A DNA stretch of 64,000 nt from assembly GCF_040958095.1 (NCBI RefSeq), contig NC_091193.1, positions 24,184,401 to 24,248,400 on the forward strand, given 5' to 3'. This DNA comes from Procambarus clarkii. Taxonomy: Eukaryota > Arthropoda > Malacostraca > Decapoda > Cambaridae. A program made the translations under genes and the position numbers. Of the stretch, positions 12,001 to 56,953 are shown in pieces. Each line of letters starts with the position of its first letter. Position 1 is the stretch's first letter. Below the pieces are notes generated by a model, which was not told the DNA's origin, ran no database searches, and worked only from the letters and a program-made list of their open reading frames with translations.

Positions 12001-15000
12001 AGCATCAGCGTGAGAAACTTGCCTGAGCATCAGTGTGTGAGACTTGCCTGAGCACTAGCGTGAGACTTGCCTGAGCATCAGCGTGAGACTTGCCTGAGCA
12101 TCAGCATGAGACTTGCCTCATCACCAGCATGAGATACTTGCCTGAGCATCAGCGTGAGACCCGCATGAACATCAGCGTGAGACCTGCCTAAGCATCAGCG
12201 TGAGAGACTTGACTGAGCATCCGTGTGTAACTTGCCTGAGGATTAGCGTGAGACTTGCTTGAGCATCAGCGTAAGAGACTTGCCTGAGCATCAGTCTGAG
12301 AGACTTGCCTGTTCATCAGCGTGGGAGACTTGCCTGGGCATCAGCGTGAGACTTGCCTGAGCATCAGCGTGAGAGACTTGCCTGAGCATCAGCGTGAGAG
12401 GCTTGACTGAGCATCAACGTGAGACTTGCCTGAGCATTTCCGTGAGACTTGCCTGAGCATCAGCGTGAGAGACCCGCCTGAGTATCAGCGTGAGACTTGC
12501 CTGAGCACTAACGTAAGACGTCCCTGAGCATCAGCGTGAGACTTGCCTGAGCATCAGCGAGAGAAACACCTGAGCACCAGCGTGAGTCTTGCCTGAGCAC
12601 CAGAGTGAGAGACTTGCCTGAGCACCAGAGTGAGAGACTTGCCTGAACATCAGCATGAGATTTGCCTGAGCATCAGTGTGTGAGACTTACCTGAGCACCA
12701 GCGTGAGAGACTTCCTGAGCATCAGCGTGATAGACTTGCCTGAGCATCAGCGTGTGACTTACCTGAGGATCAGCGTGAGAGACTTGCCTGAGCACCAGCC
12801 TGAGCATCAGCATGACAGACCTGCCTGAGCATCAACGTGAGAGACCCGCATGAGCATCAGCCTGAGACTTGCCTGAGCATCAGCGTGAGAGACTTGCCTG
12901 AGCATCAGTGTTAGAGACTTGCCTGAGCATCAGCGTTAGAGACTTGCCTGAGCATCAGCGTGAGACTTGCCTGAGCATCAGCGTGAGACCCGCATGAGCA
13001 TCAGCGTGAGACCCCCATGAGCATCAGCGTGAGAGGCTTGACAGAGCATCAGCGTGAGAGACTTGCCTGAGCATTTCCGTGAGACTTACCTGAGCATCAG
13101 CGTGAGAGACCCGCCTGAGTATCAGCGTGAGAGACTTGCCTGAGCACTAGCGTGAGACTTGCCTGAGCATCAGCGTGAGAGACACCTGAGCACCAGCGTG
13201 AGAGACTTGCCTGAGCACCAGAGTGAGAGACTTGCCTGAGCACCAGAGTGAGAGACTTGCCTGGGCATCAGCATAAGACCCGCATGAACATCAGCGTGAG
13301 ACTTGCCTGAGCATCAGCGTGTGAGACTTACCTGAGCACCAGCGTGAGATACTTGCCTGAGCATCGGCGTGTGAGACTTACTTGAGCACCAGCGTGAGAT
13401 ACTTGCCTGAGCATCAGCGTGGGAGACTTGCCTGGGCATCAGCGTGAGACTTGCCTGAGCATCAGCGTGAAAGACTTGCCTGAGCATGAGAGACTTGCCT
13501 GAGCATCAGCGTGAGAGACTTGAATGAGCATCAGCGTGGGAGACCCGCATGAGCATCAGCGTGAGAGACACCTGAGCACCAGCGTGAGACTTGCCTGAGC
13601 ATCAGCGTAAGAGACTTGCCTGAGCATCATCATGAGACTTGCCTGAGCATCAGCGTGAGAGACTTTCCTGAGCATCAGCGTGAGACATGCCTGAGCATCA
13701 GCGTGAGACATGCCTGAGCATCAGCGTGAAAGACTTGCCTGAGCATGAGAGACTTGCCTGAGCACTAGAGTGAGACTGGCCTGAGCATCAGCGTGAGACT
13801 TGCCTGAGCATCAGCGTGAGACACCTGAGCACCAGCGTGAGAGATTTGCCTGAGCACCAGAGTGAGAGACTTGCCTGAGCATCAGCATGAGACTTGTCTC
13901 ATCACCAGCGTGAGATACTTGCCTAAGCATCAGCGTGAGACCCGCATGAACATCAGCGTGAGACTTACCTGAGCACCGGCGTGAGAGACTTGCCTGAGCA
14001 TCAGCATGAGAGACTTGCCTGAGCATCAGCGTGTGACTAACCTGAATATCAGCGTGAGAGACTTGCCTGAGCACTAGCGTGAGACTTGCCTGAGCATCAG
14101 CGTGAGACTTGCCTGAGCATCAGCGTGAGAGACACCTGAGCACCAGCGTGAGACTTGCCTGAGCATCAGCATGAGACTTGTCTCATCACCAGCGTGAGAC
14201 ACTTGCCTGAGCATCAGCGTGAGACCCGCATGAACATCAGTGTGAGACCCGCATGAACATCAGCGTGAGACTTGCCTGAGCATCAGCGGTTGACTTACCT
14301 GAGCATCAGCGTGAGAGACTTGCCTGAGCACCAGCCTGAGGAATCAGCATGACAGACCCGCCTGAGCATCAGCGTGAGAGACCCGCCTGAGCATCAGCGT
14401 GAGGGACTTGCCTGAGCATCATCGTAAGACTTGCCTGAGCATCAGTGTGAGAGACTTGCCTGAGCATCAGCGTGAGAGACCCGCCTGAGCATCATCGTGA
14501 GAGACTTGCCTAAGCATCAGCCTGAGACACTTGCCTGAGCATCAGCATGACAGACCCGCCTGAGCATCATCGTGAGAGACTTGCCTGAGCACCAGCGTGA
14601 AACTTGCCTGAGCATCAGCGTGAGAGACTTGCCTAAGCATCAGCCTGAGAGACTTGCCTGAGCATCAGCATGACAGACCCGCCTGAGCATCATCGTGAGA
14701 GACTTGCCTGAGCACCAGCGTGAGACTTGCCTGAGCATCAGCGTGAGAGGCTTGAGTGAGCATCAGCGTGAGAGACTTGCCTGACCACCAGAGTGAGACT
14801 TGCCTGATCATCAGCGTGAGACTTGCCTGAGCACCAGAGTGAGAGACTTGCCTGAGCATCAGCATGAGACTTGCCTCATCACCAGCATGAGATACTTGCC
14901 TGAGCACCAGCGTGAGAGACTTGCCTGTGCATCATCGTGAGACTTGCCTGAGCATCATCGTGAGACTTACCTGGGTATCAGCTTGAGACCTGCCTAAGCA

Positions 15001-17091
15001 TCAGCGTGAAAGACTTGACTGAGCATCCCTGTGTGACTTGCCTGAGCATTAGCGTGAGACTTGCCTGAGCATCAGCATGAAAGTCTTGCCTGAGCACCAG
15101 CTAAGACTTGCCTGAGCATCATCATGAGACTTGCCTGAGCATCAGCCTGAGAGACTTGCCTGTTCATCAGCGTGAGAGACATGCTTGAGCATCAGCGTGA
15201 GAGACTTGCCTGGGCATCAGCGTGAGACTTGCCTGAGCATCAGCGTGAGAGTTGCCTGAGCATCAGCGTGAGAGGCTTGACTGAGCATCAGCGTGAGAGA
15301 CTTGCCTGAGCACTAACGTGAGACTTGCCTGAGCACCAGCGTGAGACTTGCCTGAGCACCAGAGTGAGAGACTTGCCTGAGCATCATCATGAGATTTGCC
15401 TCATCACCAGCGTGAGATACTTGCCTGAGCATCAGCGTGAGACCCGCATGAACATCAGCGTGAGACTTGCCTGAGCATCAGTGTGTGAGACTTACCTGAG
15501 CACCAGCGTGAGAGACGTGCCTGAGCATCAGCGTGAGAAACTTGCCTGAGCATCAGTGTGTGAGACTTGCCTGAGCACTAGCGTGAGACTTGCCTGAGCA
15601 TCAGCGTGAGACTTGCCTGAGCATCAGCATGAGACTTGCCTCATCACCAGCATGAGATACTTGCCTGAGCATCAGCGTGAGACCCGCATGAACATCAGCG
15701 TGAGACCTGCCTAAGCATCAGCGTGAGAGACTTGACTGAGCATCCGTGTGTAACTTGCCTGAGGATTAGCGTGAGACTTGCTTGAGCATCAGCGTAAGAG
15801 ACTTGCCTGAGCATCAGTCTGAGAGACTTGCCTGTTCATCAGCGTGGGAGACTTGCCTGGGCATCAGCGTGAGACTTGCCTGAGCATCAGCGTGAGAGAC
15901 TTGCCTGAGCATCAGCGTGAGAGGCTTGACTGAGCATCAACGTGAGACTTGCCTGAGCATTTCCGTGAGACTTGCCTGAGCATCAGCGTGAGAGACCCGC
16001 CTGAGTATCAGCGTGAGACTTGCCTGAGCACTAACGTAAGACGTCCCTGAGCATCAGCGTGAGACTTGCCTGAGCATCAGCGAGAGAAACACCTGAGCAC
16101 CAGCGTGAGTCTTGCCTGAGCACCAGAGTGAGAGACTTGCCTGAGCACCAGAGTGAGAGACTTGCCTGAACATCAGCATGAGATTTGCCTGAGCATCAGT
16201 GTGTGAGACTTACCTGAGCACCAGCGTGAGAGACTTCCTGAGCATCAGCGTGATAGACTTGCCTGAGCATCAGCGTGTGACTTACCTGAGGATCAGCGTG
16301 AGAGACTTGCCTGAGCACCAGCCTGAGCATCAGCATGACAGACCTGCCTGAGCATCAACGTGAGAGACCCGCATGAGCATCAGCCTGAGACTTGCCTGAG
16401 CATCAGCGTGAGAGACTTGCCTGAGCATCAGTGTTAGAGACTTGCCTGAGCATCAGCGTTAGAGACTTGCCTGAGCATCAGCGTGAGACTTGCCTGAGCA
16501 TCAGCGTGAGACCCGCATGAGCATCAGCGTGAGACCCCCATGAGCATCAGCGTGAGAGGCTTGACAGAGCATCAGCGTGAGAGACTTGCCTGAGCATTTC
16601 CGTGAGACTTACCTGAGCATCAGCGTGAGAGACCCGCCTGAGTATCAGCGTGAGAGACTTGCCTGAGCACTAGCGTGAGACTTGCCTGAGCATCAGCGTG
16701 AGAGACACCTGAGCACCAGCGTGAGAGACTTGCCTGAGCACCAGAGTGAGAGACTTGCCTGAGCACCAGAGTGAGAGACTTGCCTGGGCATCAGCATAAG
16801 ACCCGCATGAACATCAGCGTGAGACTTGCCTGAGCATCAGCGTGTGAGACTTACCTGAGCACCAGCGTGAGATACTTGCCTGAGCATCGGCGTGTGAGAC
16901 TTACTTGAGCACCAGCGTGAGATACTTGCCTGAGCATCAGCGTGTGAGACTTACCTGAGCACCAGCGTGAGATACTTGCCTGAGCACCAGCGTGAGAGAC
17001 TTGCCTGAGCATCATCGTGAGACTTGCCTGAGTATCATCTTGAGACCTGCCTAAGCATCAGCGTGAGAGACTTGACTGAGCATCATCAGTG
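1..17091. repeat. Satellite array of 23/25-bp units with higher-order structure
   Basis: The array is built from the core CTTGCCTGAGCATCAGCGTG followed by AGA or AGAGA, giving 23- and 25-bp units. Common variants are CACC for CATC, CCCGC for CTTGC, and CATCATCG. Higher-order blocks start at the same landmark (AGCATTAGCGTGAGACTTGC after a GTGTGACTTGCCTG motif) at 1, 3373, 5893, 9002, 11522 and 15045. Blocks at 1 and 5893 are one type, 3373 and 9002 (2,520 bp each) a second, and 11522 and 15045 a third. The third combines a private front half with the tail half of the second type. Short minus-strand ORFs (such as MLRQVSHADAQASL) recur only because blocks are duplicated, and unit length is not a multiple of three, so I treat the array as non-coding. 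The array continues beyond the left edge. Confidence 0.95.
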
Positions 17092-17097
17092 TGTGAC
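17092..17097. repeat. Left target-site duplication (TGTGAC) of the palindromic element
   Basis: TGTGAC directly precedes the first base of the inverted repeat and is repeated directly after its last base (30724-30729). Removing the element and one copy leaves CAGTGTGTGACTTGCCTGAG, a string present elsewhere in the array (for example near 722). This supports a clean insertion with a 6-bp duplication. Confidence 0.85.
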
Positions 17098-17460
17098 AGT
17101 AGTGGGATTTATGCCTACGACGTGCAATTTTCATTTTTTCCAATGCACGTCGTAGGCATAGGGGGTTTTTGATAGCTACGACGTGCAATTTTCATTTTTT
17201 CCAATGCACGTCGTAGGCATAGGGGGTTTTTGATAGCTACGACGTGCAATTTTCATTTTTTCCAATGCACGTCGTAGGCATAGGGGGTTTTTGATAGCTA
17301 CGACGTGCAATTTTCATTTTTTCCAATGCACGTCGTAGGCATAGGGGGTTTTTGATAGCTACGACGTGCAATTTTCATTTTTTCCTATGCACGTCGTAGG
17401 CATAGGGGGTTTTTGATAGCTACGACCGGCTTTTTTCATTTTTTCCAAAGCCGGTCGTAG
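17098..17460 (+). repeat. Left subterminal hairpin array (61-bp period)
   Basis: Units begin at 17115, 17176, 17237, 17298, 17359 and 17420. Each of the first five contains the inverted pair CTACGACGTGCA / TGCACGTCGTAG around a T-rich loop, then GGCATAGGGGGTTTTTGATAG. The sixth unit has a different but still perfect stem, CTACGACCGGCTTT / AAAGCCGGTCGTAG. The array begins 17 bp from the element end. Repeated subterminal motifs are typical transposase binding arrays, and the hairpins could also act as replication or resolution structures; both roles are inferred. Confidence 0.85.
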
Positions 17461-17800
17461 CATCTGGGGTTTTTCCTGTTTTTTTTCCCTATGTCTGTCG
17501 TAGCATCTGGGGTTTTTCCTAAGCCTGTCGTAGCATCATGGGTTTTTGTAAATTTTTTTGTTCCTATGCTGGTCTTAGCATCATAGTTTTTTGTTCCTAT
17601 GCCTGTCGTAGCATCATAGTTTTTTGTTCCTAGGGATTAAAAAGCTGGTCCCTGGCATCCCCAAATTTCGTTGGCTTAGTGACCCTGCACAGACATTGCT
17701 AATGGTCAATGACGTCACCAGGTAGCCGCTCAGCATTCCTGCACCGGCATGTTCGAGGAGATTAAAAAGCCTGTCGTAGCATCATGGGTTTTTCGATACA
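17461..17800 (+). repeat. Degenerate half-units of the subterminal repeat
   Basis: The right half-stem persists without a partner as repeated CCTGTCGTAGCATCATGGG-like strings (17505, 17526, 17600 and 17770 areas) separated by T runs and TTCCTATG. Between two copies of GATTAAAAAGC (about 17635 and 17759) lies a non-repetitive block with the palindrome TGACGTCA at 17710-17717. The mirror copy is at 30021-30360. Confidence 0.7.
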
Positions 17801-17924
17801 ACAGTATCCTTGAAACCTAATATAAAATACCATCATCCCTAGTCTATTTTTAATTTCATATTTACTTCCAACCATCGCCCATTATATTTATCAAAGGGGA
17901 ACAAGTATGTGAGGGAAGAACATA

Positions 17925-18425
17925 ACTTCAGCACTGCAAGAAGTTATGTGTGTATTTTTCAAGTTCGTCCCCTGCTGCCTGTATTTACCCAGGTCTTTTT
18001 CCTAAATATAAATATTTTTCGAGTTCTTCCCCTGTTACCTATATTCACCCAGGTCTTTTTCCTAAATATATAACTTATCCAATTCATTCCTGTTCTGTTT
18101 CATGTTGATACGTATAATGGGTCATTAATATTCCCCTTTACTATGACCATTCAGTCACACGTCTATCATGTCACCTCTATTTCTTCTTCATCATCGTCGT
18201 TCTAGAGAAGCACTGCAAGAAGTTATGTATGTATTTTCAAGTTCGTCCCCTGTTACCTATATTTACCCAGGTCTTTTTCCTAAATATAAAACTTATTCAA
18301 TTCATGCCTATTCTGTTTCATGTTGATACGTATAATAGGTTATTAATATTCCCCTTTACTATGACCATTCAGTCGCACCTCTATCATGTCACCCCTATTT
18401 CTTCTTCGTCATCTTCATTCTAGAG
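17925..18425 (-). repeat. LINE-derived 3' coding fragments, about 2.3 tandem copies
   Basis: The block AGCACTGCAAGAAGTTATGT ... CATCATCGTCGTTCTAGAGA occurs twice (about 17930-18205 and 18207-18425), with an extra partial duplication near 18000-18060. Segments such as TATTTACCCAGGTCTTTTTCC and AACTTATCCAATTCATTCC match the LINE 3' fragment at 50998-51345 (TATTTACCCAGATCTTTCC, AACTTATCCAATTTATACC). This is old LINE 3' sequence captured in the element and then duplicated. The mirror copy is at 29396-29896. Confidence 0.65.
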
Positions 18426-19311
18426 AATGTAATTTGAGCTTTGACAATCTTTCTTGAAGGATCGTTTTATTATGCATAGGGCAAAAAATAAAATGAAAAA
18501 AACTGCTATCATTCATTTATATGAAAAAACAGAGCCCTAGGCATTGGCGATTTCAATGCGTTTTCAGTAGTAACCAATATTGTCCTTAACCTCACACACG
18601 TCTCACATTCGCTCAAAACATACCTCCCACACCTTGCTATGGCATATAACAAATAAAAAAATCTCATTCAGTAAAAGCAAGCCTCTCATATTTTAAAATA
18701 AGGCCTTCTGCGGCGCAAGGCGCGCTAAATGCGGATCCCAGGAGGTTCACACATAAGTGTGAACTCTTAATCTGGCTTAATACCTCACCTATACTCTGTG
18801 CTTCATCAAAGTTGATATTCAGCTACAATAGCTCGTATTTTGGCTCATTGCTTATATTTTCTGTTATTCATAAACCCGATCAAACCTTCCTAACCTAACC
18901 TATCCTAACTTATTATATATAACAAACAAATACATCTTACAGAACAGTTATTGTTGTTGTTTAGTGACATCGTGAAAAGCGACCTCAGGTATAGGGATAT
19001 TGTATTGATGGTCATTAGCATATAGGTGTGAAGGTATTACAGTACCTTACTGGTCAACTATGTATGACGTCACCAGACAACCAATGCGACCTTTGGCGTC
19101 CTACTGGCATGAGTATTTGATGATATTATTCAAAAATGACTAGACTATCCATCCCCACCTAACCTAATCAGAGGTATAAGAATATACATTTTAGTCATCC
19201 ACAACTGTAATCATTATTCAGTGATAAGTTCAAAAGTATAACAGAATGCCAAATGTCATACTGCAATTTAAGCAGAATCGTACATCTGGCAGCATAGCAG
19301 GTGAGCTGAAC
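18426..19311. other. Left-arm stretch without genes
   Basis: No ORF or known repeat was recognised. Two small features stand out: a perfect 8-bp hairpin GTTCACAC-ATAA-GTGTGAAC at 18745-18764, and TGACGTCA at 19065-19072 next to CACCAG, matching the block at 17710. CCTAACCTAACC-type motifs appear near 18890. The mirror copy is at 28510-29395. Confidence 0.5.
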
Positions 19312-19440
19312 ATAAGAATAAAGGTGACTGCAGAGGTCCTATTGGCCCATACGAGGCAGCTCCTATATATTTCCACCCAATCTCATTCATGTCCACCCTA
19401 TGCTTAAAACAACCAAGGGATCCCACTTAATGTATTAGTT
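19312..19440 (-). repeat. LINE 3' fragment in left arm
   Basis: The sequence from GAACATAAGAATAAAGGTGA through CCTATTGGCCCATACGAGGC to CCAAGGGATCCCAC is homologous to 50998-51120 outside the element (GAACATAAGAATAAAAGTAA, CCTATTGGCCCATACGAGGC, TCAAGGGACCCCAC). That outside copy belongs to a minus-strand LINE 3' end. The mirror copy is at 28381-28509. Confidence 0.75.
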
Positions 19441-19539
19441 TACAATAATAGTTTTAATAAATAGCTCTTATTCTAGTTTTATACACAACAGCATTTATGA
19501 AAACCCTATATCTAGATATTCTACTATAATCCACAAGTA

Positions 19540-19705
19540 GTTACCACACATCTGGCAGTACAGCGGATTAGTGGCTGTGTTCATAGGCTAGTCAACTGTC
19601 CTCACATCCATCAAATAGATATCCAAATGTCGCACCTCAATTCATCCATCTAGCAACTCAGCTGGATGTTAGCCACTATATTCATAGGCTAATCATTTCT
19701 ACACC
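19540..19705 (+). repeat. Imperfect direct repeat pair
   Basis: CATCTGGCAGTACAGCGGAT ... TTCATAGGCTAGTCA and CATCTAGCAACTCAGCTGGA ... TTCATAGGCTAATCA are diverged direct copies about 95 bp apart. A third short copy of the head (CATCTGGCAGCATAGCAGGT) lies near 19273. The mirror copies are near 28116-28281. Confidence 0.6.
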
Positions 19706-19769
19706 TCAAAAAATCCTAGTCTTGCTGCGCAAATCAGCTAACTTGTTTCTAAACCAACACTCGCAAATA

Positions 19770-20960
19770 CAATCATGCATACCTACACATACTTCAAAAC
19801 CTATGCATTCATAGAGAATAGCCTAGTTTTTGCCACCATTTCCCAATTAATCAGATGTAATTTATGCCATACACACAGAAAATATAGCATTTACACACCA
19901 AATATGCCATTTATGCACAAAATATATTATTTACACTCAAAATATACCATCACATAAAAAAATATGAGATTTTCATACAAAATATGTCAGTTGCAAACAA
20001 AAATATACCATTTACACAATATTGCATGTACACTCAGAGTATGACATTTACAAAAAGTACGGTATTTTGCACAAATATATCAAAATGCTTATGCATTTAG
20101 ACAATAAAAAATGCACTTTAACTAAAATTACACAATTTCACAAACGTAATTTTCACAAAATACCCACACATTGTCTCATAAACCAAAATACACTTACACC
20201 ATAAAGATCTATTTTATCAAATTACAGAGCTTGCACAAAATACACAATTTTCACACACAAATACAGTTTCACCAGTTACACTTCAACATATTAAAAACAC
20301 AACTTGCATAAATGCACTATTATCGCAAAAATTATTACACAGTTTGTGTAATTATTTTACATCTTTGCACAATTAATACAAGAAAACTTGCTATATAATT
20401 ACTCAGCTTGCACAATGACAATCAATACCCAAAGGTATAAATAAACAATCCGTCCATATGCAATTACACAACATGCGCAATTAATACACAACTTATACAA
20501 TATTACACATCTTTCATAATTATTACACACAACTCGCACAAATGCATATCTAGCACAAAATACGTGCAATACATAACTACCCCAAATATGAAAATACACA
20601 ACTAGCATAAATACACGATTTACACAAATACAATTGTAACATTTACACAACTTGCTCAAAAATATAATCAATACACAACTTACCAAAATATGAACAATAC
20701 ATAACTAGCACATATTCATTAAATCCACAACTATGCAATTTCCGCAAATACACATACAAAAACATATACAATTAATACATACAACTTGCACAAAACAATA
20801 CACAATTTATAGAAATATAATCAATACATAATTTCAATAATCATACAACATATGCAAAATACATAATCTGCACAATTAATACACAAGTATATTAATTGTG
20901 CTATATATGTACAATCACAACCAACTGGGTCAAACAATACACAATTTGCATGATATTTTT
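19770..20960 (+). repeat. Degenerate CA-rich short tandem repeat
   Basis: This 1.2-kb stretch repeats variants of ACACAACTTGCACAAAATAC, AATACACAATTT and AAATATACCATTTACAC at irregular spacing of roughly 20-25 bp. The + strand is very poor in G. Short ORFs here (60-95 codons) are compositional. The mirror copy is at 26861-28051. Confidence 0.7.
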
Positions 20961-21538
20961 CTGGGTATATTTAGGACATTAATTATAATATGCTGAGTTT
21001 AACCAACTCCCCAAAAGTCAGAATTTCACATATAAAAATGTTTCTTATAACTTCCAATGAGCTCAATATATAACACATTCTTTTCCATTAAGATATCAAC
21101 ATTATTAGTGCTAAACTATTCATCTAACATATGTCCACTGTTTTTATGTCTTATTAATACCTTCCTTGTTACATCCTCTCCAATCAGACCACCATATTTA
21201 TGTATTTATTCAAACCATCTAACAGACTTATTTGTTCTAGTCTTAGTTATGTTAGGGCAGGTGGGGTTAGGTAGAGTCAGTATTTTCTATGATAATTTTA
21301 GACAAATTTGCTATATCTTATCAAAATGCATCCTGTTAAAACTTAAATTCATCTAAATCTATCAAAAATATACTTATACTACGCAAATTTGACTAAATTC
21401 TACCTAGCTAAACTTACTAAATATGAGCATCCCATATCCTCACATACAAGCCTATGTCCATACATTATATGAGTCTGCCATATAGCACGAACCCCAAATA
21501 GGAAAATTTACGCTATTTCATAAACATACTAGTTCATT
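20961..21538. other. Left-arm stretch without recognised features
   Basis: AT-rich sequence with no recognised gene or repeat. A 99-codon ORF at 21057-21356 starts inside it, but its composition is like the surrounding DNA, it has no recognised motif, and it is mirrored on the other arm at 26465-26764. Confidence 0.4.
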
Positions 21539-21539
21539 A

Positions 21540-23040
21540 CCCTAAGATATTATATATGTCCTTCCCTACACGACCTCACCAAACCTGACCTAGCATATCC
21601 AACCCTGGATTTGGTTAAAGTAGGCAAAATGTATGCTATGCCACCTAAATTTCACCAAATTTAAGGCAATTTCCACCAAATATACCCAAATGTTGTGTAT
21701 CATAGCATCGCCAAAGCCCATTTTCTCCTATTCCATACTACCCTACACAACCTCACCCAACCTGACCTAGCATATCCAAACCTGGATGTGGTTAAAGTCG
21801 GCGAAATTCATGCTATGCCACCTAAATTTGACCAAATATACCCAATGTTTCATATCACAGCACTGCCAAAGCCCATTTTTACCTACATTTTCTCCTATTC
21901 CATCCTACCCTATGCAACCTTACCTAACCTATCCTACCATATCAAAACAAAGATTTGGTTAAAGTCTGCGAAATTTAAGCTATCCCACCAAAATTCTATC
22001 TAATTTAAGGCAATTCCCACCAAATATATCCAAAGTGTTCTGTATCACAGCACTGCCAAAGCCCATTTTTACCTACATTTTCTCCTATTCCATCCTACCC
22101 TACGCAACCTTACCTAACCTATCCTAGCATATCCAAACCTAGATTTGGTTAAAGTCGGCGAAATTTAAGCTATCCCATCTAAATTCTATCTAATTTAAGG
22201 CAATTCCCACCAAATATATCCAAATGTTCTGTATCACAGCACTGCCAAAGCCCATTTTTACCTACATTTTCTCCTATTCCATCCTACCCTACGCAACCTT
22301 ACCTAACCTATCCTAGCATATCCAAACCTAGATTTGGTTAAAGTCGGCGAAATTTAAGCTATCCCATCTAAATTCTATCTAATTTAAGGCAATTCCCACC
22401 AAATATATCCAAATGTTCTGTATCACAGCACTGCCAAAGCCCATTTTTACCTACATTTTCTCCTATTCCATCCTACCCTACGCAACCGTACCTAACCTAT
22501 CCTAGCATATCCAAACCTAGATTTGGTTAAAGTAGGCGAAATTTAAGTTATCCCATATAAATTTGACCTAATTTAAGACAATTTCCACCAAATATACCCA
22601 AAAATGTTTTGGAACATAGCACGGCCAAAGCTCATTTTAGCTGAGTTTTCACCTATTCCAACCTGCCCTAGACAACCCTACCCATCCTCTCCTGGCATAT
22701 CCAAAGTCAGATTTGATTATAGTTGGGGAAATTTATGCCTTTCCAACCTAAATTTTACCTAATTTAAGCCAATTTCCACCGGATATACCCAAAATGTTTT
22801 GTTACATAGCTCAGCAAAAGACCATTTTAGCCGAGTTTTCACATATTCCAACCTACCCTACATAGCCTTACCTATCCCTGACCTAGCAGATTTTATTAAA
22901 GTTGGAGAAATTTAACCTATCGCCATGAAATTGGAGACAATTTCCACCAAATATGCCTAAATGTTGTGTATCATAGCACAGCCAAAAACCCATTTTACCC
23001 ACATTTTCACCCATTCCATCTAAACCTGGACCTAGCCTCT
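21540..23040 (+). repeat. Tandem repeat, about 189-bp units, inside left arm
   Basis: Landmark TGTATCACAGCACTGCCAAAG (or a variant) occurs near 21696, 21852, 22041, 22230, 22419, 22610, 22801 and 22968. The central three steps are exactly 189 bp with nearly identical units, while outer units are diverged. Each unit carries a CCTAACC-rich block and TTTGGTTAAAGTCGGCGAAA. The 102-codon ORF at 21695-22003 is a by-product. The mirror copy is at 24781-26281. Confidence 0.85.
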
Positions 23041-23610
23041 GATACTCAGAGAAGTGATGTTTTGGATATGAACCTAAATGCCCGTGCCTAACCTGCAAGA
23101 GTCTTGGAGCTTTGTTGAATATTTCTTCAAAAACTGAAGTTTTGGATATGAACCTATCCGCACTGTGCCTAACCTGCTAGGATCTTTGTTGAACATTGTA
23201 ACCATATTCATAGAAAAGTGATGTTTTGGATATGGACCTAACAGCCCCTCTTCTTTAAAACTTGGAACTGTGTTCAATATTGTAGATATAGTGTTGGGTG
23301 TGTATTTTGTTTTTACACATCAACCCAACAGTCCTGGACCTAACCTCCCTTCATCTAACTTCAAATTTATCGTAAATATGGAAGGACGTGTTGTTTGTGC
23401 ATCAACCCAATCGTTCTTGACCTAACCTCCATTTATCAAACTTCAAATTTATCATAAATATGGGAGGACCGTGTTATTTGTGCATCAACCCATCCTGGGC
23501 CTAACCTCCCTTTATCTAACTTCAAATTTATTGTATTTATGGGAAGAAGGTGTTGTTTATGCATCAACCCAACCGCCCTGGACCTAACCTCTGATACACA
23601 AATCTTGGTT
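23041..23610 (+). repeat. Tandem repeat, about 80-bp units, inside left arm
   Basis: There are two related sets. Three units share GATGTTTTGGATATGAACC and CCTAACCTGC (23050-23275). Four units share CATCAACCCA at 23318, 23400, 23483 and 23562, with GGACCTAACCTCC and ACTTCAAATTTAT. The mirror copy is at 24211-24780. Confidence 0.8.
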
Positions 23611-23875
23611 CAACATTGCATCATACTCGTAGCATATTTTTTTTCACATAATTCAACCATCCTCAACCTAACCTCTATTACCTGGGGGAGGGAGGTTAAT
23701 GGAAAATATGATAATAATGGGAATTTTCTCTACATCAGTTCAACCTAACCATCCTTAACCTAACCTTAGTTAGAAAGGGATATAACTCACCAAAACTGTT
23801 TAATTACCATTTACCTTATTTTCCTTATCCTAACCCATAACCAGAGGGTTTAGACCCCCCTTTACCTCGAAATTA

Positions 23876-23945
23876 GAGTACAGGGTTAAATTAGGGAATG
23901 TTAGGTTTATGTGTGAAAATATATTCCTACCTTAAATATATAGTA
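23876..23945. other. Central spacer of the palindrome
   Basis: These 70 bp between the arms are not self-complementary (GAGTACAGGGTTAAATTAGG ... TATATAG). The arms close at CCTCGAAATTA (23865-23875) and TAATTTCGAGG (23946-23956). A unique spacer argues against a sequencing-adapter foldback artefact, which would normally leave no spacer. Confidence 0.85.
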
Positions 23946-26900
23946 TAATTTCGAGGTAAAGGGGGGTCTAAACCCTCTGGTTATGGGTTAGGATAAGGAA
24001 AATAAGGTAAATGGTAATTAAACAGTTTTGGTGAGTTATATCCCTTTCTAACTAAGGTTAGGTTAAGGATGGTTAGGTTGAACTGATGTAGAGAAAATTC
24101 CCATTATTATCATATTTTCCATTAACCTCCCTCCCCCAGGTAATAGAGGTTAGGTTGAGGATGGTTGAATTATGTGAAAAAAAATATGCTACGAGTATGA
24201 TGCAATGTTGAACCAAGATTTGTGTATCAGAGGTTAGGTCCAGGGCGGTTGGGTTGATGCATAAACAACACCTTCTTCCCATAAATACAATAAATTTGAA
24301 GTTAGATAAAGGGAGGTTAGGCCCAGGATGGGTTGATGCACAAATAACACGGTCCTCCCATATTTATGATAAATTTGAAGTTTGATAAATGGAGGTTAGG
24401 TCAAGAACGATTGGGTTGATGCACAAACAACACGTCCTTCCATATTTACGATAAATTTGAAGTTAGATGAAGGGAGGTTAGGTCCAGGACTGTTGGGTTG
24501 ATGTGTAAAAACAAAATACACACCCAACACTATATCTACAATATTGAACACAGTTCCAAGTTTTAAAGAAGAGGGGCTGTTAGGTCCATATCCAAAACAT
24601 CACTTTTCTATGAATATGGTTACAATGTTCAACAAAGATCCTAGCAGGTTAGGCACAGTGCGGATAGGTTCATATCCAAAACTTCAGTTTTTGAAGAAAT
24701 ATTCAACAAAGCTCCAAGACTCTTGCAGGTTAGGCACGGGCATTTAGGTTCATATCCAAAACATCACTTCTCTGAGTATCAGAGGCTAGGTCCAGGTTTA
24801 GATGGAATGGGTGAAAATGTGGGTAAAATGGGTTTTTGGCTGTGCTATGATACACAACATTTAGGCATATTTGGTGGAAATTGTCTCCAATTTCATGGCG
24901 ATAGGTTAAATTTCTCCAACTTTAATAAAATCTGCTAGGTCAGGGATAGGTAAGGCTATGTAGGGTAGGTTGGAATATGTGAAAACTCGGCTAAAATGGT
25001 CTTTTGCTGAGCTATGTAACAAAACATTTTGGGTATATCCGGTGGAAATTGGCTTAAATTAGGTAAAATTTAGGTTGGAAAGGCATAAATTTCCCCAACT
25101 ATAATCAAATCTGACTTTGGATATGCCAGGAGAGGATGGGTAGGGTTGTCTAGGGCAGGTTGGAATAGGTGAAAACTCAGCTAAAATGAGCTTTGGCCGT
25201 GCTATGTTCCAAAACATTTTTGGGTATATTTGGTGGAAATTGTCTTAAATTAGGTCAAATTTATATGGGATAACTTAAATTTCGCCTACTTTAACCAAAT
25301 CTAGGTTTGGATATGCTAGGATAGGTTAGGTACGGTTGCGTAGGGTAGGATGGAATAGGAGAAAATGTAGGTAAAAATGGGCTTTGGCAGTGCTGTGATA
25401 CAGAACATTTGGATATATTTGGTGGGAATTGCCTTAAATTAGATAGAATTTAGATGGGATAGCTTAAATTTCGCCGACTTTAACCAAATCTAGGTTTGGA
25501 TATGCTAGGATAGGTTAGGTAAGGTTGCGTAGGGTAGGATGGAATAGGAGAAAATGTAGGTAAAAATGGGCTTTGGCAGTGCTGTGATACAGAACATTTG
25601 GATATATTTGGTGGGAATTGCCTTAAATTAGATAGAATTTAGATGGGATAGCTTAAATTTCGCCGACTTTAACCAAATCTAGGTTTGGATATGCTAGGAT
25701 AGGTTAGGTAAGGTTGCGTAGGGTAGGATGGAATAGGAGAAAATGTAGGTAAAAATGGGCTTTGGCAGTGCTGTGATACAGAACACTTTGGATATATTTG
25801 GTGGGAATTGCCTTAAATTAGATAGAATTTTGGTGGGATAGCTTAAATTTCGCAGACTTTAACCAAATCTTTGTTTTGATATGGTAGGATAGGTTAGGTA
25901 AGGTTGCATAGGGTAGGATGGAATAGGAGAAAATGTAGGTAAAAATGGGCTTTGGCAGTGCTGTGATATGAAACATTGGGTATATTTGGTCAAATTTAGG
26001 TGGCATAGCATGAATTTCGCCGACTTTAACCACATCCAGGTTTGGATATGCTAGGTCAGGTTGGGTGAGGTTGTGTAGGGTAGTATGGAATAGGAGAAAA
26101 TGGGCTTTGGCGATGCTATGATACACAACATTTGGGTATATTTGGTGGAAATTGCCTTAAATTTGGTGAAATTTAGGTGGCATAGCATACATTTTGCCTA
26201 CTTTAACCAAATCCAGGGTTGGATATGCTAGGTCAGGTTTGGTGAGGTCGTGTAGGGAAGGACATATATAATATCTTAGGGTAATGAACTAGTATGTTTA
26301 TGAAATAGCGTAAATTTTCCTATTTGGGGTTCGTGCTATATGGCAGACTCATATAATGTATGGACATAGGCTTGTATGTGAGGATATGGGATGCTCATAT
26401 TTAGTAAGTTTAGCTAGGTAGAATTTAGTCAAATTTGCGTAGTATAAGTATATTTTTGATAGATTTAGATGAATTTAAGTTTTAACAGGATGCATTTTGA
26501 TAAGATATAGCAAATTTGTCTAAAATTATCATAGAAAATACTGACTCTACCTAACCCCACCTGCCCTAACATAACTAAGACTAGAACAAATAAGTCTGTT
26601 AGATGGTTTGAATAAATACATAAATATGGTGGTCTGATTGGAGAGGATGTAACAAGGAAGGTATTAATAAGACATAAAAACAGTGGACATATGTTAGATG
26701 AATAGTTTAGCACTAATAATGTTGATATCTTAATGGAAAAGAATGTGTTATATATTGAGCTCATTGGAAGTTATAAGAAACATTTTTATATGTGAAATTC
26801 TGACTTTTGGGGAGTTGGTTAAACTCAGCATATTATAATTAATGTCCTAAATATACCCAGAAAAATATCATGCAAATTGTGTATTGTTTGACCCAGTTGG

Positions 26901-29900
26901 TTGTGATTGTACATATATAGCACAATTAATATACTTGTGTATTAATTGTGCAGATTATGTATTTTGCATATGTTGTATGATTATTGAAATTATGTATTGA
27001 TTATATTTCTATAAATTGTGTATTGTTTTGTGCAAGTTGTATGTATTAATTGTATATGTTTTTGTATGTGTATTTGCGGAAATTGCATAGTTGTGGATTT
27101 AATGAATATGTGCTAGTTATGTATTGTTCATATTTTGGTAAGTTGTGTATTGATTATATTTTTGAGCAAGTTGTGTAAATGTTACAATTGTATTTGTGTA
27201 AATCGTGTATTTATGCTAGTTGTGTATTTTCATATTTGGGGTAGTTATGTATTGCACGTATTTTGTGCTAGATATGCATTTGTGCGAGTTGTGTGTAATA
27301 ATTATGAAAGATGTGTAATATTGTATAAGTTGTGTATTAATTGCGCATGTTGTGTAATTGCATATGGACGGATTGTTTATTTATACCTTTGGGTATTGAT
27401 TGTCATTGTGCAAGCTGAGTAATTATATAGCAAGTTTTCTTGTATTAATTGTGCAAAGATGTAAAATAATTACACAAACTGTGTAATAATTTTTGCGATA
27501 ATAGTGCATTTATGCAAGTTGTGTTTTTAATATGTTGAAGTGTAACTGGTGAAACTGTATTTGTGTGTGAAAATTGTGTATTTTGTGCAAGCTCTGTAAT
27601 TTGATAAAATAGATCTTTATGGTGTAAGTGTATTTTGGTTTATGAGACAATGTGTGGGTATTTTGTGAAAATTACGTTTGTGAAATTGTGTAATTTTAGT
27701 TAAAGTGCATTTTTTATTGTCTAAATGCATAAGCATTTTGATATATTTGTGCAAAATACCGTACTTTTTGTAAATGTCATACTCTGAGTGTACATGCAAT
27801 ATTGTGTAAATGGTATATTTTTGTTTGCAACTGACATATTTTGTATGAAAATCTCATATTTTTTTATGTGATGGTATATTTTGAGTGTAAATAATATATT
27901 TTGTGCATAAATGGCATATTTGGTGTGTAAATGCTATATTTTCTGTGTGTATGGCATAAATTACATCTGATTAATTGGGAAATGGTGGCAAAAACTAGGC
28001 TATTCTCTATGAATGCATAGGTTTTGAAGTATGTGTAGGTATGCATGATTGTATTTGCGAGTGTTGGTTTAGAAACAAGTTAGCTGATTTGCGCAGCAAG
28101 ACTAGGATTTTTTGAGGTGTAGAAATGATTAGCCTATGAATATAGTGGCTAACATCCAGCTGAGTTGCTAGATGGATGAATTGAGGTGCGACATTTGGAT
28201 ATCTATTTGATGGATGTGAGGACAGTTGACTAGCCTATGAACACAGCCACTAATCCGCTGTACTGCCAGATGTGTGGTAACTACTTGTGGATTATAGTAG
28301 AATATCTAGATATAGGGTTTTCATAAATGCTGTTGTGTATAAAACTAGAATAAGAGCTATTTATTAAAACTATTATTGTAAACTAATACATTAAGTGGGA
28401 TCCCTTGGTTGTTTTAAGCATAGGGTGGACATGAATGAGATTGGGTGGAAATATATAGGAGCTGCCTCGTATGGGCCAATAGGACCTCTGCAGTCACCTT
28501 TATTCTTATGTTCAGCTCACCTGCTATGCTGCCAGATGTACGATTCTGCTTAAATTGCAGTATGACATTTGGCATTCTGTTATACTTTTGAACTTATCAC
28601 TGAATAATGATTACAGTTGTGGATGACTAAAATGTATATTCTTATACCTCTGATTAGGTTAGGTGGGGATGGATAGTCTAGTCATTTTTGAATAATATCA
28701 TCAAATACTCATGCCAGTAGGACGCCAAAGGTCGCATTGGTTGTCTGGTGACGTCATACATAGTTGACCAGTAAGGTACTGTAATACCTTCACACCTATA
28801 TGCTAATGACCATCAATACAATATCCCTATACCTGAGGTCGCTTTTCACGATGTCACTAAACAACAACAATAACTGTTCTGTAAGATGTATTTGTTTGTT
28901 ATATATAATAAGTTAGGATAGGTTAGGTTAGGAAGGTTTGATCGGGTTTATGAATAACAGAAAATATAAGCAATGAGCCAAAATACGAGCTATTGTAGCT
29001 GAATATCAACTTTGATGAAGCACAGAGTATAGGTGAGGTATTAAGCCAGATTAAGAGTTCACACTTATGTGTGAACCTCCTGGGATCCGCATTTAGCGCG
29101 CCTTGCGCCGCAGAAGGCCTTATTTTAAAATATGAGAGGCTTGCTTTTACTGAATGAGATTTTTTTATTTGTTATATGCCATAGCAAGGTGTGGGAGGTA
29201 TGTTTTGAGCGAATGTGAGACGTGTGTGAGGTTAAGGACAATATTGGTTACTACTGAAAACGCATTGAAATCGCCAATGCCTAGGGCTCTGTTTTTTCAT
29301 ATAAATGAATGATAGCAGTTTTTTTCATTTTATTTTTTGCCCTATGCATAATAAAACGATCCTTCAAGAAAGATTGTCAAAGCTCAAATTACATTCTCTA
29401 GAATGAAGATGACGAAGAAGAAATAGGGGTGACATGATAGAGGTGCGACTGAATGGTCATAGTAAAGGGGAATATTAATAACCTATTATACGTATCAACA
29501 TGAAACAGAATAGGCATGAATTGAATAAGTTTTATATTTAGGAAAAAGACCTGGGTAAATATAGGTAACAGGGGACGAACTTGAAAATACATACATAACT
29601 TCTTGCAGTGCTTCTCTAGAACGACGATGATGAAGAAGAAATAGAGGTGACATGATAGACGTGTGACTGAATGGTCATAGTAAAGGGGAATATTAATGAC
29701 CCATTATACGTATCAACATGAAACAGAACAGGAATGAATTGGATAAGTTATATATTTAGGAAAAAGACCTGGGTGAATATAGGTAACAGGGGAAGAACTC
29801 GAAAAATATTTATATTTAGGAAAAAGACCTGGGTAAATACAGGCAGCAGGGGACGAACTTGAAAAATACACACATAACTTCTTGCAGTGCTGAAGTTATG

Positions 29901-30723
29901 TTCTTCCCTCACATACTTGTTCCCCTTTGATAAATATAATGGGCGATGGTTGGAAGTAAATATGAAATTAAAAATAGACTAGGGATGATGGTATTTTATA
30001 TTAGGTTTCAAGGATACTGTTGTATCGAAAAACCCATGATGCTACGACAGGCTTTTTAATCTCCTCGAACATGCCGGTGCAGGAATGCTGAGCGGCTACC
30101 TGGTGACGTCATTGACCATTAGCAATGTCTGTGCAGGGTCACTAAGCCAACGAAATTTGGGGATGCCAGGGACCAGCTTTTTAATCCCTAGGAACAAAAA
30201 ACTATGATGCTACGACAGGCATAGGAACAAAAAACTATGATGCTAAGACCAGCATAGGAACAAAAAAATTTACAAAAACCCATGATGCTACGACAGGCTT
30301 AGGAAAAACCCCAGATGCTACGACAGACATAGGGAAAAAAAACAGGAAAAACCCCAGATGCTACGACCGGCTTTGGAAAAAATGAAAAAAGCCGGTCGTA
30401 GCTATCAAAAACCCCCTATGCCTACGACGTGCATAGGAAAAAATGAAAATTGCACGTCGTAGCTATCAAAAACCCCCTATGCCTACGACGTGCATTGGAA
30501 AAAATGAAAATTGCACGTCGTAGCTATCAAAAACCCCCTATGCCTACGACGTGCATTGGAAAAAATGAAAATTGCACGTCGTAGCTATCAAAAACCCCCT
30601 ATGCCTACGACGTGCATTGGAAAAAATGAAAATTGCACGTCGTAGCTATCAAAAACCCCCTATGCCTACGACGTGCATTGGAAAAAATGAAAATTGCACG
30701 TCGTAGGCATAAATCCCACTACT
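23946..30723 (-). repeat. Right arm of the palindrome
   Basis: This is the reverse complement of 17098-23875, base for base wherever I compared them, including the 80-bp, 189-bp and CA-rich repeats, the LINE fragments and the subterminal hairpins (30361-30723). Its + strand is correspondingly G-rich and C-poor. Confidence 0.9.
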
Positions 30724-30729
30724 TGTGAC
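30724..30729. repeat. Right target-site duplication (TGTGAC)
   Basis: Direct copy of 17092-17097, immediately after the terminal CCCACTACT, followed by TTGCCTGAGCACTAGCG, which is ordinary satellite. Confidence 0.85.
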
Positions 30730-32259: not shown

Positions 32260-32266
32260 AGCACCA
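32260..32266. repeat. Left target-site duplication of LINE A (AGCACCA)
   Basis: AGCACCA at 32260-32266 and again at 36133-36139 bracket LINE A. Joining the flanks gives CACCTGAGCACCACCGTGAG, which is canonical variant satellite. Confidence 0.7.
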
Positions 32267-33130
32267 TGCCTGAACTCTGAACACAACCCAGGGACTGAGA
32301 ATTTAGAGAGTCAAAGTAGCAATGTAGAAGGGTATAGTGTCGAGGTACACAAAAATGAAGGCAATAGTGTAGAGCACACTGGTGATATGAATAAGGAGAG
32401 AAAAAATGAGACGAATGAGAACACAAATGAGAAAGACGAAAGCAACAAGGAGAAAGATAAGGGCAATACCGAGAATGAATGCAGAAACGAGAAAGTTGGA
32501 ACAAAAAACACAGAGGTAGCCAAGTCGTGCACGGGTACAAACAAGAATAATACAATCACAGATGAAAATATTTGCTGGTATTATGCAAAAGGACAGTGTA
32601 GATATGGGCCCAGAGGCACGGAATGCTCATTCATGCACCCACGGAAATGCCGAAACTGGTTAGGGAAAGGCAGATGTCGTTTTGATACAGAGTGTAGATA
32701 TTTTCACCCTAAGCTATGCACACTCTCAGTCAATGGGAGGAAATGCTACGATCTTCACTGCCCCGATTTCCACGTCAGAGGTACACAGTGCCATATAAGA
32801 GAAGAAGTCCAACATAATAGCCCTGAAAATTTTTTAGAGGCAGGTACAAACAGAGGGAGAAACAGACAGGCAGAAACGTGGCAGGAGTACGGATGGAGAG
32901 GGGGAAATGCCCAAGACTGGACTACAGTTCGTCATCAAGCCCACACATACTACACCCCCCAACTACACAGAGACTACCACACTCCCCAGTATCACTTCCA
33001 AAACTGGACAAACCATTGCCACAACAACACACCCTGGGTCAGGGTAGAGAGGAGGGAGAACTACCAAAACCTTCCAGAAGTGACACACAATATGGACAAT
33101 CATTCATATTTGCAAACATTCAAGGTTTAA
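32267..33130 (+). CDS. LINE A ORF1, CCCH zinc-finger protein (5'-truncated)
   Basis: From the ATG at 32387 the product is 247 residues. The frame stays open upstream for 40 more codons to the element edge with similar composition, so the true start is probably lost. The first ~60 residues are rich in Asn, Glu and Lys and probably disordered. Three CCCH fingers follow: C63-C71-C80-H84 (C-x7-C-x8-C-x3-H), C88-C97-C103-H107 (C-x8-C-x5-C-x3-H) and C111-C120-C125-H129 (C-x8-C-x4-C-x3-H). CCCH fingers usually bind RNA, so the inferred role is packaging the element RNA as ORF1 proteins do. The C-terminal part is rich in His, Gln and Asn. Its last 253 bases overlap the ORF2 frame. Many LINE ORF1 proteins carry CCHC knuckles, so a triple CCCH array is notable. 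Confidence 0.8.
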   Translation, partial: CLNSEHNPGTENLESQSSNVEGYSVEVHKNEGNSVEHTGDMNKERKNETNENTNEKDESNKEKDKGNTENECRNEKVGTKNTEVAKSCTGTNKNNTITDENICWYYAKGQCRYGPRGTECSFMHPRKCRNWLGKGRCRFDTECRYFHPKLCTLSVNGRKCYDLHCPDFHVRGTQCHIREEVQHNSPENFLEAGTNRGRNRQAETWQEYGWRGGNAQDWTTVRHQAHTYYTPQLHRDYHTPQYHFQNWTNHCHNNTPWVRVERRENYQNLPEVTHNMDNHSYLQTFKV

Positions 33131-43700: not shown

Positions 43701-44092
43701 GGGGTGACTGGGGGCAGAGGGGATCCGGGGGATCTGGGGGGTGTCTGGGGGATGACTGGGGGCGGGGAGGGTCCGGGGGATGTCCGGGGGGATCCGGGGG
43801 GTGTCTGGGGGGGTCCGGGGGGTGTATGGGGGGTGAAAGAGTTCAGGAGGGGTGCTTGGGGGGCTACTGGGGGCTGGGCTTCTAGGAAGGTAGGTAGGAG
43901 GGTCTGGGGTAGGGCCTGGGTAGGTAGGTCTGGAGTAGGAAGGGCATACTGGGTCTGAAGATTAGGGAGGGCATAGAGGGGTTGGGAGATAGCGTAAGGT
44001 TGGGAGACAGATAGAGGTTGAGAGGTTGGGAGGGGGTAGGATAGAGGGGGTGGGGGGGACCTCCCACCTCCCTCGCAAGGGTGGGGGGTCAC
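40783..44092 (-). pseudogene. LINE B ORF2: endonuclease-reverse transcriptase, frameshifted
   Basis: The first ~150 residues are low-complexity Pro-rich. The APE-type endonuclease follows from KVWYTNADG, with VETKIN, GGGVALLIK, LLIMGDLNHG (the conserved GDxN), LLDLIFTQ and GASDH. The frame shifts near 42730-42760. The next frame (42761-41040) carries a basic linker, AVGPDKVSPW, LNYRPVSLTS, CIFLDCQKAFDTV, GVPQGSVLGPILF and FADDAKL around residue 390, then YVRPVLEYAA and LVPELRGMGYEERLRE. A second shift near 41040-41080 moves the C-terminus (GTYKILRGI, RDVRKFSFSV, WNALQEQVVEANT) to a third frame ending at 40783. The open frame starts with GTG at 44092, within the overlap with ORF1, so ORF2 may have been made by reinitiation or frameshifting. 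All core motifs are present, so decay is recent. Confidence 0.85.
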
Positions 44093-45186: not shown

Positions 45187-45556
45187 TGCTATAATGCAAC
45201 CTTACCCACAGGGGTTCCAAGTATCTTACCGTCCTGCCAACACAATAGGTGAGTGAATCTCCAAGCGTCGTCCCACGTGGTGGTAGGAGGGTTGCTGCCG
45301 GGGTGAGGTCACGCGGTCAGAGGTCGGTGAGGTCTGCTCCACACTACACACTGCCACAATACTTCCTCAACTATATTGAATTACGCTATTTAAACTGTTT
45401 TTCTTCACTACCTTATGGCTCTGGCCAAAACTCAAGTTTTTTTCATTCACTTGTACACACTTTTTCACTTCGAAGTTGCCTGATTACCCCTCCCACTCCA
45501 CTGGTGAACCAGGAGCTCCCAACCCACGTCTACCCAACACGATGGTCACAAGACAA
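45187..45556 (-). other. Probable LINE B 5' leader and flank
   Basis: Between the ORF1 start and the (TG)n run. On the minus strand it ends in TAATGCAACC... just before the ORF1 start. I cannot place the element's 5' end; ATTGAATTACGC/TATTTAAACTG and the CCACTCCACTGG area look single-copy. No ORF was recognised. Confidence 0.35.
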
Positions 45557-50997: not shown

Positions 50998-51345
50998 AGA
51001 ACATAAGAATAAAAGTAACTGCAGCAGGCCTATTGGCCCATACGAGGCAGCTCCCATTTATAACCACCCCATCCCACTCACGTACATGTCCAACCCACGC
51101 TTGAAACAATCAAGGGACCCCACCACGCTACGCGGTAATTGGTTCCACAAATAAACAACCCTGTTACCGAACCAGTATTTACCCAGATCTTTCCTAAATT
51201 TAAACTTATCCAATTTATACCCATTGTTTCGTGCCAAATGCATTACTTTTAACAATACATTTGGGCCCTCTGAAGTCGATAGAATGATCACATCAACTGG
51301 AATGTGAATACAATGCACTAGAGAGCTGGGCTGTACGAATAGCAT
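50998..51345 (-). pseudogene. LINE D: C-terminal fragment of a LINE ORF2
   Basis: The minus strand encodes NNGYKLDKFKFRKDLGKYWF, GNRVVYLWNQLPRSVV and CFKRGLDMYV, a pattern typical of the C-terminal end of jockey/CR1-like reverse transcriptases (NRVV..WN.LP..VV). The 3' side ends at TTACTTTTATTCTTATGTTC (minus strand). The same 3' sequence is inside both palindrome arms (19312-19440, 28381-28509), so this family predates or fed the palindromic element. No catalytic core is present. Confidence 0.75.
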
Positions 51346-56748: not shown

Positions 56749-56953
56749 CGAGATGTGTGAGCAAGGTGGGGAAGTGTTACTAAACAACACGTACTGTACA
56801 GTACAGTAATGAAGACGCTGGCCAGGAGCCCCCGAGACAGAGACAGACAGACACAGACACCATTGATGGCACCAACGCACCTTTAACCAGAGCGGCTCAG
56901 CGGAGCCGGTAAAATGCACCCTCATGGCTTCCTAAGAATCACCTCCATATTCC

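Follow-up and report, generated by a model that had tools for sequence, protein, structure and literature searches.

Maverick (Polinton) transposons are the closest described relatives of the element reported here. The replication and excision steps of Polintons are known mainly as models. In the Polinton/casposon model, as set out in the available text of PMC4046053, single strands that have been excised pair through their terminal repeats into panhandles, and these serve as origins. In vertebrate Mavericks, (AGT)2//(ACT)2 is one of two end motifs and is found with 6-bp target duplications, and the inverted repeats of intact elements measure 46-1447 bp, with a mean of 402 (available text of PMC8097293). 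The element described here lies in a 64,000-nucleotide stretch of the crayfish Procambarus clarkii genome, hereafter the window, at C44:24184401-24248400 of a 4.03-Gb assembly composed of 2308 contigs. It is a palindrome that occupies window positions 17098-30723. We consider it probable that this palindrome derives from a Polinton/Maverick family of the same genome as a non-autonomous form, stripped down to a molecule made up entirely of inverted repeat, born by fold-back and copied and inserted in trans.

The arms of the window copy (17098-23875 and 23946-30723) form a perfect palindrome around a 70-bp spacer. The mirror sum of 47821 holds at 6778 of 6778 positions across 17098-23875, with 0 mismatches. 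The original prediction, made from the letters of the window, had given the mirrored arms, their sum, the spacer, the ends and the TGTGAC on both sides as they were found; its term "near-perfect" was right about palindromy and too cautious about arms that are in fact perfect. The spacer at 23876-23945 has no mirror, and the 15 of 35 positions that pair are equalled in 4.3% of ungapped and 48% of gapped base shuffles, so that a decayed symmetry in the spacer is a doubtful reading. The termini are AGTAGTGGG and CCCACTACT, so that the end motif is AGTAGT..ACTACT, i.e. (AGT)2//(ACT)2. The satellite flanks have one orientation on both sides of the element. When joined, they give CATCAGTGTGTGACTTGCCTGAGCA, a natural satellite variant, and the 25 bases across the junction are found exactly elsewhere in the array, as expected from the earlier claim that joining restores the satellite. 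The hexamer TGTGAC is present 24 times in the left satellite and precedes 11 of the 460 TTGCC sites. Because it is common in the array, the duplication at this site alone is only moderately strong evidence of insertion, and its strength comes from the other copies.

Those other copies are numerous. A 38-mer at the centre, running from arm into spacer, matches 521 places genome-wide (256 on the plus strand and 265 on the minus strand, allowing up to 3 mismatches), and a 46-mer in the arm matches 403 places under the same limit (214 and 189); the reversed control gave 0 for each. The arm 46-mer sits in the part of the arm shared with Polintons, so its 403 places include Polinton copies, and the family is better counted by the centre 38-mer. 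The centre count is more than half of the arm count, perhaps because diverged subfamilies escape the arm pattern. Among the first 100 of the 403 arm places, 78 form 39 plus-then-minus pairs, none form minus-then-plus pairs within 20 kb and 22 are single. The spacing of these pairs is 7.0-10.7 kb (33 pairs) or 12.2-12.6 kb (six pairs). Longer queries returned the same arrangement: the first 500 bases gave 69 matches, largely in plus/minus pairs with 12-19 kb between them (40 of 192 candidates scored), an interior 871-bp stretch gave 43, mostly in such pairs (40 of 2211), and an inner-arm stretch gave 40, also mostly paired (40 of 1504). The end pattern has 33 exact matches in the genome, with 0 for the reversed control, and patterns taken from the ends gave 0 matches in viral contigs and in bacterial genome contigs. 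The possibility, raised in the original prediction, that all other copies might prove single-armed did not materialize: all ten regions compared with themselves are mirrored. The spacer is shared, in either orientation, by the nine of nine copies in which both sides of the centre were located, with a length of 70 bp in eight and 77 bp in C27. Palindrome length is 12.4-14.3 kb among the eight copies with exact target duplications.

Single ends and short relatives coexist with the palindromes in the genome. Solo ends of the GATTGACGCC/GATTGACGAC type were considered as an autonomous partner and rejected, as the three that were read hold only iteron blocks or a mini-palindrome. Two of these, L028 (285-713) and L029 (287-898), have terminal iteron blocks only, followed by unrelated DNA, and the third, L030 (287-425), is a mini-palindrome of ~140 bp of terminal iterons inside an AT repeat. 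Runs of three same-strand matches, 6-8 kb apart, were also seen, with the arm probe at G000:C115:2414599-2429815 and with the centre probe at G000:C3:52617250-52629934, which suggests tandem arrays of half elements.

Both ends of 11 copies were read for target duplications. Exact 6-bp duplications flank eight of the 11: CACTAG (C50), GCGGCG (C22), CGCCGC (C35), GTGGTA (C80), GACCCG (C15), CATAAG (C12), CATGAC (C29) and TGTGAC (C44, the window copy). The C22 and C35 copies have common flanking DNA in opposite orientation, duplications that are reverse complements, and three arm differences in common. They therefore represent one insertion duplicated or two haplotypes, which leaves seven independent exact sites. 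The genome search proposed in the original prediction thus returned hundreds of copies with the same termini and different 6-bp duplications, and these support its description of a mobile giant foldback element without recognizable genes.

The coding content of the arm agrees with that description. The longest stop-free frame is 112 amino acids, and a Pfam search of 20 separate stop-free arm pieces of at least 60 amino acids, scanned singly, gave no match at the cut-off (best E 0.0015). Neither PolB nor an rve integrase was found in the arm by these frame and Pfam scans, and no capsid gene was found in the palindrome. A coding remnant in the arms had also been sought by a six-frame Pfam scan, which was negative; that format is weak, as its control missed the 65-bit PolB domain of L041, a Polinton locus introduced below, and the rerun on the separate pieces rejected the candidate as well. 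Arm matches below the cut-off to Prominin (0.0018), FLAD1_M (0.0015) and CDPF1 (0.023) were taken as chance. Since neither PolB nor integrase was found, the palindrome is not itself an autonomous Polinton.

Autonomous candidates are present in the same genome, where PolB_2 is abundant: 95 matches were obtained with 91 of 1428 candidates scored. One family, Polinton A, has ends of the form AGTAGTGAATAAGG with an AGTAGTG motif and 6-bp duplications (CCCGTC at C24, ATGTAA at C10). Among its frames are an ATPase domain of the Pox_A32 type and an rve integrase that has a chromodomain, its inverted repeats are identical at 615 of 615 read bases at C24 and 99.8% identical over 544 at C10, and its length is roughly 16 kb. 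A second Polinton family, read at C79, C7 and C16, is the closer candidate partner, judging from its end regions. At C79 (L041), the DNA that lies inward of the AGTAGTGTGG end aligns in four pieces, at 86-93%, with arm bases 569-2212, and the match stops at the start of a long interspersed nuclear element (LINE) fragment; at C7 (L039) and C16 (L040), arm bases 525-2212 are matched in five pieces each at 71-89%. A 473-amino-acid open piece from L041 is PolB (PF03175, 7.1e-18), and PolB adjoins the homologous stretches at C7 and C16. Against PHROGs, the PolB frame of L041 had weak endonuclease VII matches only (0.0098); no phage records matched the PolB piece, and the PDB searched by sequence returned nothing relevant. 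The C7 and C16 ends carry a terminal hairpin, CTACGAAGGACCG/CGGTCCTTCGTAG, at offsets 17-57, and all 11 palindrome ends compared carry one, CTACGACGTGCA/TGCACGTCGTAG, at the same offsets. Between the two sets the sequence has changed and the pairing is kept. The motif GGGTTTTT follows the hairpin at C7, at C16 and in ten of the 11 palindrome ends.

The homology of the outer arm to the end region of PolB-bearing Polintons is the ground for naming a Polinton partner. The original prediction had set Polintons aside as protein-coding, and this homology overturns that step. Its proposal of movement in trans fits the evidence, and the enzyme that it left unnamed comes very probably from a Polinton/Maverick family of this genome, as the shared end sequences indicate. 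The coding relatives with shared termini that it suggested looking for were found as PolB-bearing Polintons, with the terminal hairpin common to C7 and C16 and not to C79.

A further line of evidence comes from loci at which PolB itself is mirrored. With the PolB piece as query, 90 matches were obtained (90 of 3436 candidates scored), 41 of which were checked by script and the others by eye. In copies with a single PolB and the 46-mer on each side (C1, C16, C37 and C60), the distance from PolB is ~2.85-2.88 kb to one of the 46-mers and 9.3-9.4 kb to the second. At C79, two mirrored PolB copies lie 2866 and 2865 bases from their 46-mers, with both sums 21622006 and a gap of 4043. At 23.28 Mb of C50, a locus distinct from the gene-less C50 copy at 17.32 Mb, a mirrored PolB pair has sums of 46567968 and 46567959 and a gap of 4790; the 9-base offset corresponds to 3 residues missing at the start of one match. 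The unequal gaps (4043 versus 4790) imply different centres, barring a later insertion or deletion at one of the loci. Both loci appear to be palindromes that retain PolB and are separate from the amplified palindrome represented in the window. Palindromes seem to have arisen from this Polinton family more than once, and we infer fold-back replication behind them; the mirrored-PolB loci suggest that it occurs in this family.

From these observations a course of events can be proposed. Replication from a Polinton end would have turned round close to where the centre now lies and run back along the arm to the terminus from which it started, leaving two identical ends. Maverick transposons probably copy and insert the palindrome: PolB, together with a terminal protein, and integrase from autonomous Polintons would do so in trans, and they could act because terminal signals stand at both palindrome ends. 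The displaced single strand would fold up on itself as a single 6.8-kb hairpin whose loop is 70 nt, and mismatch repair in the stem, or later arm-to-arm conversion, would equalize the arms of each new copy and keep the loop sequence. Such repair would not alter the loop, in agreement with the conservation of the 70-bp centre. By analogy, the palindrome may be the limiting case of the panhandle model, with a panhandle spanning the entire molecule. The palindromes are not far in length from Polinton A (~16 kb), and one may speculate that replication or packaging sets a size limit.

Several points weigh against this proposal. The C79 and Polinton A ends show no terminal hairpin within their first 75 bases, so that two of the four Polinton ends read possess it. 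The autonomous family is homologous only in pieces, at 71-93%, and for the inner 4.4 kb of the arm the Polinton pieces that were read offer no more than weak short matches (best E 5.7e-4). The integrase domain was seen in Polinton A, and the closer partner was read only in part. Among the target sites, the C27 duplication matches at five of six positions; the C46 copy (G000:C46:13879296-13893144) has ends of two different subtypes and a flank match of only GAGAG, 5 bp, offset by one, and is possibly a recombinant; and C77 (L022/L023, C77:25162500-25180800) has no target duplication and inverted satellite flanks. The mirrors at C79 and at 23.28 Mb of C50 rest on PolB match positions, with PolB identity and the arm 46-mers in addition at C79, where DNA was read for one side. 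Replication, the hairpin intermediate and transposition in trans are steps inferred from sequence. The same centre in nine of nine located copies means that fold-back is not repeated with each move and explains the origin only. Finally, conversion in place would also account for arm identity.

That last point is the main rival, and it concerns the arm-equalizing step only. Arms were compared within eight copies; C27 was left out on account of an insertion and a run of N, and C77 because the centre probe is missing on one side. Differences between arms number 0 of 6778 bases in C44, 1 of 6504 in C50, 1 of 6764 in C80, 1 of 6775 in C15, 3 of 7093 in C22, 5 of 6149 in C12, 13 of 6986 in C29 and 23 of 7083 in C35, a divergence of 0-0.33%. 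Small indels between arms are found in C35 (32), C80 (two) and C29 (two). By self-comparison, C27 is 99.6% identical over a mirrored 12.5 kb and C77 97.3% over 5.8 kb. Divergence between different insertions is 0.79-7.29%, and that of the C22/C35 pair is 0.01%. In a tree, the two arms of every copy are sisters, and C22 and C35 group together. As the arms pair by copy, they are not two separate arm lineages, and something copies one arm onto the other. Identity is per copy, as in pairs of long terminal repeats, which implies homogenization at or after each insertion. The content of the arms is older than their identity: LINE fragments are ~80% like the LINE at 51 kb, internal 194-bp copies are 92% alike, and both are perfectly mirrored. 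If a rate of 3e-9 mutations per site per generation is assumed, the absence of differences across 6778 bases sets a 95% limit of ~74,000 generations. The earlier alternative of very recent insertion or continual conversion needs correcting in that identity goes copy by copy; extreme youth is not forced.

On the rival account, the family is the same and Polinton-derived, and its arms are kept alike by continual arm-to-arm gene conversion within the chromosome, as in sex-chromosome palindromes. We regard it as possible and somewhat unlikely. In its favour, with the 871-bp stretch the nearest other copy scored 1550 bits and the window copy's own arms 1572, the arms lie within 5 bits of each other in 14 of the 16 plus/minus pairs among the matches listed, and a 70-bp spacer favours arm pairing. 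However, a nearer neighbour of the window copy may exist, as 40 of 2211 candidates were scored; the pairs at 39.25 Mb of C9 and 9.47 Mb of C41 differ by 20 bits in the same list; and C22 and C35 retain the same three arm differences, which conversion has not erased since they parted, possibly a short time ago.

It is very improbable that an assembly artefact, in which an element with one arm was mirrored by foldback reads or a faulty join, explains the palindrome. Long perfect palindromes are an assembly hazard, C77 has inverted flanks and C35 has its 32 small indels between arms. Nonetheless, exact 6-bp duplications stand in unmirrored flanks at eight of 11 copies, the same centre recurs at 521 places, the arm places listed include no minus-then-plus pair within 20 kb against 78 in plus-then-minus pairs, and differences between copies far exceed those between arms. 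In the window, the shared orientation of the flanks excludes a simple folded-back read, since in such a read the flanks would be mirrored as well. Together, the recurrence, the target duplications and the lack of mirroring in the flanks disfavour the artefact. Least probable of all is that the palindrome belongs to a cut-and-paste superfamily that makes 6-bp duplications, as one of its foldback families, or to the Foldback/Galileo group: the available text of PMC10045372 gives 6-bp duplications for IS3EU and GingerRoot, and that of PMC3573991 gives long, internally repetitive arms for Foldback and Galileo, but IS3EU ends in TA..TA and GingerRoot mostly so (PMC10045372), against AGTAGT..ACTACT here, which led us to reject IS3EU and other cut-and-paste foldbacks, and arm homology to PolB-bearing elements points to Polintons.

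The features of the element are collected in Table 1. Four of the six terminal iterons were folded, the remaining two being identical in sequence to the first; in the sixth, the stem sequence has changed from GACGTGCA to GACCGGCT with pairing retained.

Table 1. Coordinates of the palindrome and its parts in the window.
Feature	Position	Strand	Basis
Target duplication, left copy, TGTGAC	17092..17097	.	Direct sequence; 6-bp length also at 8/11 copies
Left arm, 6778 bp	17098..23875	+	6778/6778 mirror matches
Six 61-bp terminal iterons	17115..17480	+	Each foldable to a hairpin, stem at least 12 bp
Half-iterons GTCGTAGCATC, inward of hairpin iterons	17497..17783	+	Mirror copy 30038-30324
Polinton-homologous part of arm	17622..19309	+	Piecewise match to PolB-side end region (C79, C7, C16)
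LINE 3' region fragment	19308..19426	.	81% like 50999-51123; at stop of Polinton homology; mirror 28395-28513
Inner arm	19427..23875	+	Degenerate, AT-rich repeats together with 189-bp units (six to seven, carrying CCTAACC-like motifs) and 80-bp repeats
Central non-palindromic spacer, 70 bp	23876..23945	.	Direct sequence; centre 38-mer (arm into spacer) at 521 genome places
Right arm, exact reverse complement of left	23946..30723	-	Mirror comparison
Polinton-homologous part, mirror copy	28512..30199	-	Mirror and homology comparison
Six terminal iterons, mirror copy	30341..30706	-	Mirror comparison
Target duplication, right copy, TGTGAC	30724..30729	.	Direct sequence

Other observations concern base composition and the surroundings. 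GC skew over 18000-30000 reaches as low as -0.46 in the left arm and as high as +0.50 in the right, and CCTAAC has a density of 2.8 per kb in the arm and 0.06 in the remaining window. In the left satellite, 9889-13421 matches 13412-16944 exactly over 3533 bp (offset 3523), with further long near-exact offsets of 5629 and 9152; the array has therefore been recently duplicated in blocks. Two LINE-type elements at 32261-36085 (+) and 41040-45201 (-) have endonuclease and reverse transcriptase domains across several frames. Long minisatellites at 53805-56542 and 56953-59458, with 16-bp and 30-bp units, are open in several frames along their length. Rfam and tRNA scans of the window found nothing.

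The Polinton-derived reading can be carried one step further, and we offer this extension tentatively, as a reading that may well prove wrong. The palindromes may be selfish satellite genomes of a virus-like Polinton, which need only its termini, form a self-annealing hairpin that bears the origin, are copied without a partner strand, have their arms repaired in each cycle, stay near the parent in size and spread at its expense. If so, they would amount to a DNA equivalent of defective interfering genomes, with hundreds of them fixed in a germ line. Instability is expected of long perfect palindromes, yet this genome has one palindrome centre at hundreds of places and near-identical arms in the eight copies compared, which are 12-14 kb long, and so it offers a natural test bed for palindrome stability and for the homogenization of inverted repeats. 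An element that consists solely of terminal repeat also isolates the cis requirements of the Polinton machinery. A literature search found no paper on palindromic or non-autonomous Polintons or Mavericks; most subscription journals, preprints and spelling variants lay outside that search.

Compared with known systems, the palindrome is most like Polintons/Mavericks. It shares with them the AGTAGT..ACTACT ends, exact 6-bp duplications, piecewise homology of the end region, a similar length, a terminal hairpin (two of four Polinton ends) and inverted repeats that are near-identical within a copy. Unlike them, it has no PolB, integrase or capsid gene that was found, and its inverted repeats fill the whole element; the 6778-bp arms are 4.7 times the longest vertebrate Maverick inverted repeat of 1447 bp (available text of PMC8097293). 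The palindrome would work like a defective Polinton passenger, with apparent descent for at least part of the outer arm.

Among protein-primed DNA viruses, snap-back or defective genomes, in which one terminus is duplicated in inverted form around a short loop and which are helped in trans, resemble the palindrome in this inverted duplication, whereas the palindrome is fixed in hundreds of chromosomal copies and is known here from chromosomal sequence alone. The large palindromes of sex chromosomes keep near-identical arms despite old content through gene conversion. The crayfish palindrome is like them in its arms and old content and unlike them in being mobile, with target duplications and a 70-bp spacer. 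Foldback of Drosophila and Galileo have shorter arms and target duplications longer than 6 bp. They are alike in having long inverted arms with tandem sub-repeats and little or no coding sequence, but the ends and the PolB-linked partner of the palindrome set it apart, and Galileo is classed with P elements by its transposase (available text of PMC3573991). Taken together, these comparisons place the element as a putative Polinton-derived, non-autonomous form, with which Foldback and Galileo share the build only.

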